In this document: positions 17,691-20,072 of the stretch, piece by piece
How the letters are laid out: the number at the start of each line of letters is the position of its first letter
How positions within the stretch are numbered: the stretch's first letter is position 1
DNA from: Haloprofundus salinisoli
Lineage (GTDB): Archaea; Halobacteriota; Halobacteria; Halobacteriales; Haloferacaceae
Assembly (NCBI RefSeq): GCF_020097815.1
Contig: NZ_CP083663.1
Span: forward strand, 868,001-932,000
DNA length: 64,000 bases
Direction of reading: 5' to 3'
Translations under genes and position numbers: made by a program
The notes under the pieces: model-generated
The model's database searches: none
Told to the model about the DNA's origin: nothing
The model's input: the letters and a program-made list of their open reading frames with translations, nothing else

Positions 17691-17786
17691 CCGTCCTCGT
17701 GGTAAGGGCCTCGAATAGGACGGGTTACAGGCAGTCGATTGAACAGTCCGCTGTTCGCTTCGCTCGCGGAGCAGCGACGCAAGAAG

Positions 17787-17860
17787 TCCGCTCTCCCCGA
17801 TTTGAACGGGGGGCAAGCCGATCTACAGTCGGCTGCTCTGCCAGGCTGAGCTAAGAGCGG
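17787..17860 (-). tRNA. tRNA-Tyr (anticodon GUA)
   Basis: A 74-nt cloverleaf read on the minus strand. The acceptor stem CCGCTCT pairs with AGAGCGG before discriminator A; the D arm is GCTC/GAGC. The anticodon stem GCCGA/TCGGC encloses CTGTAGA with anticodon GTA, and the T arm CCCCG/CGGGG encloses TTCAAAT. The C1:G72 pair is the archaeal tRNA-Tyr identity element. No intron and no encoded CCA. Confidence 0.96.
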
Positions 17861-17976: not shown

Positions 17977-18480
17977 ATGAGTAAAGTCACGTTCCGCGCG
18001 GACGACGACCTCGTCGAGCGACTGGAGGCGTTAGACGCCTCCAAGAGCGAGGTCATGCGCGAGGCGCTTCGTGCGTACCTCGACACCTCGGAGCGTGACG
18101 ACGGCGCGGCCGAACCAACGCCCGCGCACATCGACGACCTGGTGCGCGAACGCGTCGACGAACTCGTCGGCGAGTATCTCCGACAGGCCGAGAGCCGCCG
18201 ACCACAGGACGTCAACGTCAACATCAGCCTCGACGGCGCGACTGACGACGACGCCGAGCAGCGTAAGACAACCGTCGACGATGCGGAGGCGATGAACGAG
18301 AAATCCTGCAGTCAGTGCGGCGAAGAGCTGTCCGACGGGCAGATGTACTGCTCGAACTGCGGCGAGAAAGCGTCTCGTCGGCTGTTCTGCGACTGCGGCG
18401 ATGAGGTGCGGTCGGACTGGGCGTTCTGCCCGGGGTGCGGTCGACGGACCCCGGCGGCAGACGTGCTAGACCGTCGTTGA
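17977..18480 (+). CDS. cdrL: CdrL-like ribbon-helix-helix / zinc-ribbon regulator
   Basis: 167 residues from the ATG at 17977. The N-terminal 35 residues (MSKVTFRADDDLVERLEAL, KSEVMREALRAYL) form a ribbon-helix-helix DNA-binding domain. A linker of about 60 acidic residues follows, then a double zinc ribbon with CSQCGEELSDGQMYCSNCG and CDCGDEVRSDWAFCPGCG. In other haloarchaea a long RHH protein (CdrL) lies next to the short RHH protein CdrS and ftsZ2 and binds their promoter; the order here is the same, so I use that name. It may recognise the palindromic repeats at 18520-18674. Confidence 0.78.
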   Translation: MSKVTFRADDDLVERLEALDASKSEVMREALRAYLDTSERDDGAAEPTPAHIDDLVRERVDELVGEYLRQAESRRPQDVNVNISLDGATDDDAEQRKTTVDDAEAMNEKSCSQCGEELSDGQMYCSNCGEKASRRLFCDCGDEVRSDWAFCPGCGRRTPAADVLDRR

Positions 18481-18519: not shown

Positions 18520-18674
18520 GTCTTACACTCGCCGTTACATTTATATCCTGTCGCTCTGTGCTTACGTTCGCGTAAGACGGTCGTCTTACGTTCCGAATCC
18601 GAGGGGGTCAAGTCGTCCTCTTCGCGCGATTTCGGCACGTGAGACGGTGTCGGGCATGCGCCCGACCGTCTTAC
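18520..18674 (+). promoter_or_regulatory. cdrS-ftsZ2 promoter with repeated GTCTTAC/GTAAGAC sites
   Basis: A TATA-like TTTATATC at about 18540-18547 suggests transcription from about 18570. GTCTTAC or its complement occurs at 18520-18526, 18572-18578, 18583-18589 and 18668-18674. The middle two form an 8-bp inverted repeat CGTAAGAC-GGTC-GTCTTACG (18571-18590). An overlapping 6-bp inverted repeat with a TTCG spacer spans 18561-18576. Symmetric 7-8 bp sites fit dimeric ribbon-helix-helix proteins such as the flanking CdrL and CdrS. Confidence 0.6.
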
Positions 18675-18689
18675 CGGGGGAATGTAAAC

Positions 18690-18878
18690 ATGGAGCGTGT
18701 GACACTACGAATTCCGAAGCAGCAGATCGAAGAGGTCGAACAGATGGTGGAGACGGGAGAGTTCCCGAACCGCAGCGAAGCCATCCGTTCGGCCGTCCGC
18801 GAGATGCTCAACGAGCAGGCCGATGAACGCGACGCGAAACGTCCCGAGCGCACCAAGCGCAGCTGGGCAAAGGTGTAA
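18690..18878 (+). CDS. cdrS: CdrS, short ribbon-helix-helix cell-division regulator
   Basis: 62 residues from the ATG at 18690: [21 protein letters not shown], then [16 protein letters not shown], a minimal MetJ/Arc-type ribbon-helix-helix domain, and a basic tail ending RTKRSWAKV. The stop lies 3 nt before the ftsZ2 start, so the two genes form one transcript. This matches the haloarchaeal cdrS-ftsZ2 operon in which CdrS controls cell-division genes. Start choice: the upstream start at 18639 would add 17 residues overlapping one of the GTCTTAC sites. Confidence 0.92.
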
Positions 18879-18881
18879 TCG

Positions 18882-20072
18882 ATGCAAGATATCGTTCAAG
18901 ACGCACTCGAAAACGCCGAAGCCGAGCAGCGCGATATGGAGGCGCAGAGCGACGACGACGAGTTCGGGGAACCCCGTATCGTCATCGTCGGCTGCGGTGG
19001 TGCCGGGAACAACACCATCAACCGCCTCTACAACATCGGCGTCGAAGGCGCTGACACCGTCGCTATCAACACCGACAAACAGCACCTGAAGATGATCGAG
19101 GCCGATACGAAGATTCTCGTCGGCAAGTCGCTGACCTCCGGCCTCGGTGCCGGCGGCGACCCCTCGATGGGTGAACGCGCGACGGAGATGGCCCAGGGAA
19201 CCGTCAAGGAGGTTCTCGGCCAGGCAGACCTCGTCTTCGTCACCGCGGGGATGGGCGGTGGCACCGGGACCGGTGCGGCCCCCGTCGTCGCCAAAATCGC
19301 CAAAGAACAGGGCGCTATCGTCGTCGGCATGGTCTCGACGCCGTTCAACGTCGAGCGTGCCCGTACGGTGAAAGCCGAGGAAGGACTGGAGAAACTCCGC
19401 AACGAGGCGGACTCCATCATCGTCCTCGACAACAACCGCCTGCTCGACTACGTCCCGAACCTCCCGATCGGCAAGGCGTTCTCGGTGATGGACCAGATCA
19501 TCGCCGAGACGGTGAAGGGTATCTCGGAGACGATCACTCAGCCGTCGCTCATCAACCTCGACTACGCCGACATGTCCACCATCATGAACCAGGGTGGCGT
19601 CGCCGTGATGCTGGTCGGTGAGACCCAGGACAAGAACAAGACCGAAGAGGTGGTCCGCGACGCGATGAACCACCCGCTTCTCGACGTGGACTACCGCGGG
19701 GCGTCCGGCGGCCTCGTCCACATCACCGGCGGCCCGGACCTCACGCTCAAAGAGGCCGAGGGCATCGCCGACAACATCACCGAACGCCTCGAAGCGAGCG
19801 CCAACGTCATCTGGGGCGCGCGCATCCAGGAGGAGTACAAGGGGAAAGTCCGCGTCATGGCCATCATGACCGGCGTCCAGAGCGCGCAGGTGCTCGGCCC
19901 GACGACGCAGAAGCAGGCCGACCGCTCGCGCGCCAGTCTCGACGGGAGCTCGGAGTTCGAGACGAGCCAGAACCGCCAGCGCCGGACAAACGCGAACTCG
20001 AACGGCTCGTGGCAGTCCGACGGCGGACGCGACGAGGTCGAACGCAACAACGGCCTCGACGTCATCCGCTAA
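18882..20072 (+). CDS. ftsZ2: cell division protein FtsZ2
   Basis: 396 residues. Tubulin-like GTPase of the archaeal division ring. After an acidic N-terminal arm (1-30) comes [17 protein letters not shown], then the tubulin signature GGGTGTG (125-131). The catalytic T7 loop follows as [16 protein letters not shown], with its conserved NxDxxD acids. A glutamine/asparagine-rich C-terminal tail ([12 protein letters not shown] to the end) follows the globular part. The placement after cdrS identifies the FtsZ2 paralogue, which in Haloferax is needed for ring constriction, rather than FtsZ1. Confidence 0.95.

Follow-up and report, generated by a model that had tools for sequence, protein, structure and literature searches.

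The cdrS-ftsZ2 Promoter Region

The window, which here means the whole 64-kb stretch of Haloprofundus salinisoli DNA that was analysed, carries the gene pair cdrS-ftsZ2 together with cdrL directly upstream of it. Around the promoter between cdrL and cdrS lies a group of sites with the heptad GTCTTAC or its complement GTAAGAC, designated A to F. The genes and sites are as follows:

17977-18480, (+): cdrL, encoding a protein with an RHH domain (Pfam RHH_1), the CdrL middle region (CdrL_M, PF24252) and a double zinc ribbon (DZR)
18263-18269, (-): site F, an exact heptad within cdrL, which encodes RKT as CGT AAG ACA
18520-18526, (+): site A, a lone heptad upstream of the TATA box and outside the predicted cdrS transcript, exact in 115 of 148 loci
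18540-18546, (+): TATA-like box TTTATAT of the cdrS-ftsZ2 promoter
18569-18692, (+): predicted 5' UTR, modelled as a three-way-junction RNA leader; the last bases of the modelled stretch are the start codon
18571-18590, no strand: B/C palindrome CGTAAGACGGTCGTCTTACG, spanning the predicted transcription start
18572-18578, (-): heptad B, as RNA the 5' strand of stem P1, with E as partner
18583-18589, (+): heptad C, as RNA the 5' strand of stem P2, with D as partner
18639-18645, (-): site D, GTGAGAC here (one mismatch), the RNA partner of C that closes P2; exact in 108 of 148 loci
18649-18666 (limits approximate), (+): region of the P3 hairpin between D and E, whose interior was compared with shuffles for folding
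18668-18674, (+): site E, the RNA partner of B that closes P1; exact in 144 of 148 loci
18676-18680, (+): conserved G-run, Shine-Dalgarno-like, whose G columns are near-invariant in the leader alignment
18690-18878, (+): cdrS, encoding a 62-aa RHH regulator (Pfam RHH_1), with the N-terminus MERVTLRIP in 153 of 154 loci
18882-20072, (+): ftsZ2 (Pfam Tubulin and FtsZ_C)

Upstream of cdrL there is also a tRNA-Tyr gene (17786-17860, (-) strand), and an Rfam tRNA match about 0.8-1.2 kb upstream of cdrS was seen in loci L007, L033, L052 and L053 as well.

Four heptads, two of them forming a palindrome, had been reported between 18520 and 18674 in an earlier note on this DNA, and they are present there. 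When exact heptads were counted on either strand, five were found in the window, all inside 412 bp around the promoter, the fifth being site F, which is absent from that note. The number is ordinary (4.1 expected for the whole window), but the clustering is not: the Poisson probability of four heptads per 155 bp is about 4e-10 for a single 155-bp stretch and about 3e-7 across the window. The central inverted repeat reads CGTAAGACG-GT-CGTCTTACG; its position was given correctly before, but its arms measure 9 bp and not the 8 bp then stated.

The TATA-like box of relatives begins 30-34 bp ahead of the palindrome. This distance predicts that transcription starts at the palindrome or immediately before it, in line with the previous suggestion that the repeat lies where transcription should begin. 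The layout of palindrome, A, D and E recurs in ftsZ2 loci. Site A stands in (+) orientation 51-53 bp before B in one group of loci, and in (-) orientation 61-65 or 73-74 bp before B in other clades; these spacings of about 52, 63 and 74 bp correspond to roughly five, six and seven helical turns, which is no more than suggestive of helical phasing. Across loci, site D follows B by 59-64 bp (plus spacer) and site E precedes the cdrS start codon by 19-33 bp. In L011, L022, L036, L038 and L141-L144 (Halobaculum and others), an extra GTAAGAC was observed beyond site A, preceding the palindrome by about 103-115 bp.

Conservation of the Palindrome

The 3.4 Mb genome to which the window belongs contains one copy only of the pattern GTAAGAC-N4-GTCTTAC. 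In a sample of 392 genomes from the order, 306 carry it, nearly always as a single copy, while the reversed-pattern control was found in one of the 392. Among genomes lacking the N4 form, 58 of 77 carry identical arms separated by a different spacer, 3 to 6 bases long, and a spacer of 2 was found in one further family of loci. At least 364 of the 392 haloarchaeal genomes thus have the palindrome or a spacer variant of it, and in all 30 loci located through the pattern it lies upstream of cdrS; the motif is therefore kept in related haloarchaea, which was the check that the earlier note had proposed. The loci themselves give the same picture. Most of the 79 ftsZ2 loci with a recognised cdrS, by a large majority, have the exact palindrome with the 4-base spacer and the remainder have the same heptads spaced one base wider; in the pooled cdrS loci an exact palindrome with a spacer of 2-6 is present in 148 of 154, the other six having degenerate forms at the same place. 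Outside the haloarchaea, one of 101 genomes of the phylum matched, which is a chance-level result not above control, and apart from this match both the palindrome and CdrL are confined to haloarchaea.

A Structured RNA Leader

In Haloferax volcanii, cdrS-ftsZ2 was reported to be transcribed as a bicistronic mRNA of about 1,500 nt with a marked 5' UTR (Liao et al., 2021, PMC8406309). In the window, the predicted 5' UTR reaches a folding energy far lower than that of shuffled sequences (z -4.2), and in this fold the partners are B with E and C with D. The same comparison across 148 loci gives a mean z of -4.3 for complete shuffling; if only the sequence outside the heptads is shuffled, the mean is -2.5, and this z is negative in 96% of loci. 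The architecture is a three-way junction composed of P1 (B:E), P2 (C:D with an extension that makes it a long hairpin) and P3 (formed between D and E). The P3 hairpin is variable and absent in some loci, so it is not universal; in 37 of 46 loci the segment between D and E has a better fold than its shuffles, and the interior of the C-D segment also folds better than shuffled sequence. For 44 of 46 loci, the energy of the structure with B:E and C:D is no more than 1 kcal from that of the best fold. A covariance model of the leader (R1) matches 23 of the 24 haloarchaeal genomes in a 148-genome sample of the phylum and none of the 124 non-haloarchaeal ones, and no Rfam family matches the leader at gathering score.

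Covariation shows that B:E and C:D form a common secondary structure of the leader. In 48 aligned leaders, both sides of the pair are changed in 60 cells of P1 and P2, where shuffles give 31.9 +/- 4.0, and the covariation score is 0.138 against 0.076, neither value being reached in any of 500 shuffles; these shuffle tests ignore relatedness, for which the slid controls and a count on a tree correct in part. No slid version of the P1 and P2 pairing reaches the covariation of the true one, and the count on the tree, which comprised 121 loci, gave 34 compensatory double changes for the P2 extension and 4-14 for slid or alternative pairings. In 46 anchored leaders, covariation was located at positions 1-5 of the P2 extension and at inner positions 2 and 3 of P1, and none was seen at the alternative pairs; its restriction to inner pairs in P1 is explained by the fact that the P1 heptads hardly vary. 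RNAalifold on a plain sequence alignment returned only the invariant B:C hairpin because the variable arms were misaligned, and it was therefore necessary to take the structure from folds of individual sequences and to anchor it on the heptads. The alternative set of pairs, B:C with D:E, has a mean energy 6.3 kcal/mol higher than that of the best fold and shows no excess in paired percentage or score, its values being reached by 268/500 and 162/500 shuffles.

On the covariation, the reading of D and E as DNA-only sites is rejected. The earlier note had taken the heptad near the ribosome entry, site E, for a further DNA site; the heptad is there, but it is not merely another such site, because E pairs with B as RNA. 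The heptad in E is more invariant than RNA pairing alone requires, so E may double as a DNA site. Several loci show that either of the two elements, palindrome and RNA stems, can be lost on its own: L115 and L193 keep A and the palindrome while D and E are missing, L182 has a broken palindrome and keeps B:E (P1), and in one group D reads GTAAAC, by which the heptad is lost and most of the pairing to C is kept.

CdrL and the Probable DNA Operator

In Halobacterium salinarum, the cdrS-ftsZ2 promoter was the sole reproducible target of CdrL by ChIP in both growth phases (Darnell et al., 2020, PMC7439475), a result that supports the promoter region and whose resolution is too coarse to point to the heptads. 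A sole target fits with the palindrome being found once per genome. The CdrL beta strand K[IV]TFR is near-invariant.

Of 77 cdrL genes, 38 also contain the heptad within their coding sequence. The RKT tripeptide was found 37 times in CdrL, each time encoded by CGTAAGAC, i.e., CGT-AAG-AC[A/G], and CGT makes up 14% of Arg codons in the same genes; the naive probability of such uniform codon choice is vanishingly small, a value made less extreme by shared ancestry. This codon choice, at a single spot in a poorly conserved linker, seems hard to explain by protein function. From the sequences, a DNA operator at the cdrS promoter is well supported by site A, the palindrome and site F with its forced codons, and repeated and palindromic half-sites do lie at the promoter that CdrL targets. 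CdrL is the best candidate for the regulator that would read the heptads. L074 has an intact palindrome and no cdrL within its 6 kb locus; in L187, a cdrS locus with a degenerate palindrome, cdrL was likewise not seen in the locus DNA examined.

CdrS and Its Own Target Sites

Joint control of the operon by CdrL and CdrS had been suggested in the earlier note. The part that concerns CdrL is borne out by the binding of the region in vivo in H. salinarum (PMC7439475), and the part that concerns CdrS is not: CdrS ChIP in H. volcanii gave 18 sites, and the cdrS promoter is not among them (Liao et al., 2021, PMC8406309). At the ftsZ1 promoter, a CdrS target, the best match is of the type GTCnGAC-N4-GTCnGAC with at most two mismatches in 34 of 34 loci; half-sites GTCnGAC are found in most of the 34, and GTAAGAC in none. 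In the Haloferax psmB and dacZ promoters, GTCAGAC precedes the start codon by about 73 and about 48 bp, which nearly matches the published positions -72 and -47 if the genes are leaderless, since those positions count from transcription starts; only this one half-site, and not a complete GTCnGAC palindrome, was found at each. The half-site GTCnGAC is derived here from the target promoters and not from the published logo. GTCnGAC-N4-GTCnGAC is not present at the cdrS promoter, where the half-sites read GTAAGAC. As judged from these half-sites, the codes of CdrS and of the palindrome are one base apart per half-site. On half-site sequence and the published ChIP list, CdrS was rejected as the palindrome's main ligand, a role for which it makes a poor candidate.

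Proposed Mechanism and Alternatives

Taken together, the region probably exerts two-layer control over cdrS-ftsZ2, with an operator for which CdrL is the presumed binder and an RNA leader with a presumed regulatory function. Half-sites for an RHH regulator, most likely CdrL, would be provided by site A, by the B/C palindrome and also by site F, which about half of the examined cdrL genes contain. CdrL dimers would control initiation by occupying the palindrome at the transcription start as well as A on the far side of the TATA box, and, judged from the position, repression is likelier. Once transcribed, B:E and C:D would build the three-way junction of P1, P2 and usually P3, in which P1 may hold or shield the 5' end of the mRNA and the G-run before the cdrS start codon would be left free. 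From its position, the leader most likely sets the stability or the translation of the operon mRNA.

It seems rather unlikely that every heptad is purely a DNA site through which CdrL and CdrS jointly control the operon. In its favour are the conservation and RHH-like character of the heptads, the binding of the promoter region by CdrL (PMC7439475) and the similarity of the strands RVTLR of CdrS and K[IV]TFR of CdrL, both RHH proteins; against it, D and E follow RNA pairing, the cdrS promoter is missing from the CdrS ChIP table (PMC8406309), and the CdrS targets ftsZ1 (34 loci), psmB and dacZ carry GTCAGAC/GTCnGAC. The opposite reading, in which the repeats serve solely as an RNA leader and there is no DNA operator, draws on the strong covariation and folding of the leader but is considered very unlikely, because the same heptad recurs in A, upstream of the TATA box, and in F, within the cdrL coding sequence, the palindrome persists in lineages without D and E, and a CdrL ChIP peak lies at the promoter (PMC7439475). 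Chance clustering of a common heptad would agree with the chance-level total in the window; the probability of about 3e-7 speaks against it, and conservation across the order rules it out, leaving it a practically negligible explanation.

The leader might also be a two-state switch between B:C with D:E and B:E with C:D, flipped by a ligand, a protein or the speed of transcription. The sequence permits both pairings, and as the RNA is made B:C could be the earlier of them, but the flanks of the alternative pairing do not covary and its energy lies well above that of the best fold; when tested, the switch received no support from covariation, and we regard it as improbable. It is hardly probable either that CdrL or CdrS reads the heptad twice, in promoter DNA and in the RNA helix of P1/P2, and so couples initiation and translation. 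The two-layer reading is preferred.

Comparison With Known Systems

The cdrS-ftsZ2 operon is among the few regulatory entry points to the timing of archaeal cell division. In Halobacterium, mRNA level and ribosome occupancy of cdrS and ftsZ2 were decoupled in a comparison of Ribo-seq with RNA-seq (PMC8303175), and the leader is a candidate explanation for this mismatch. Structured leaders are judged not typical of haloarchaea, 72% of H. volcanii transcripts being leaderless (Babski et al., 2016, PMC4983044); the cdrS leader is a conserved structured one in a group with mostly leaderless mRNAs, and stem loops in 5' UTRs matter for translational control in the genes tested by Brenneis and Soppa (PMC2636863). 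Like riboswitches and r-protein leaders, the cdrS leader is a conserved structured 5' UTR directly ahead of a coding region; unlike known leader RNAs, it has no Rfam match and two of its stems reuse DNA operator sequence. Relative to the open-access literature and Rfam, both the motif and the leader are new.

One of the closest systems is the CdrL region of H. salinarum (PMC7439475), with the same promoter and the same protein family, although the main text of that study contains no motif, palindrome or leader RNA; the half-sites, their spacing, the intragenic site and the RNA leader are described here. For CdrL this yields a base-level operator hypothesis and a one-base distinction from the CdrS half-site. 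The RHH operators relO (PMC2812701) and the Arc operator are similar to the proposed CdrL operator in having tandem RHH dimers on one helix face with short half-sites. relO tolerates no added spacing, whereas the spacer of the cdrS palindrome varies from 2 to 6 bp, and, unlike these operators, the cdrS repeats also form RNA stems.

The motif of CdrS, the RHH protein of the same operon, in H. volcanii (PMC8406309) is symmetric as well, and at ftsZ1 its two heptads are four bases apart; it differs in the half-site GTCnGAC and in that the ftsZ1 site lies upstream of the TATA box. The genome to which the window belongs contains five matches to GTCnGACN4GTCnGAC and none to the reversed control, and these are candidate CdrS regulon sites. 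Among the candidate sites (L195-L209), one lies upstream of ftsZ1 (L199) and another precedes a PRC-barrel gene; genes of this class are included in the published CdrS targets.
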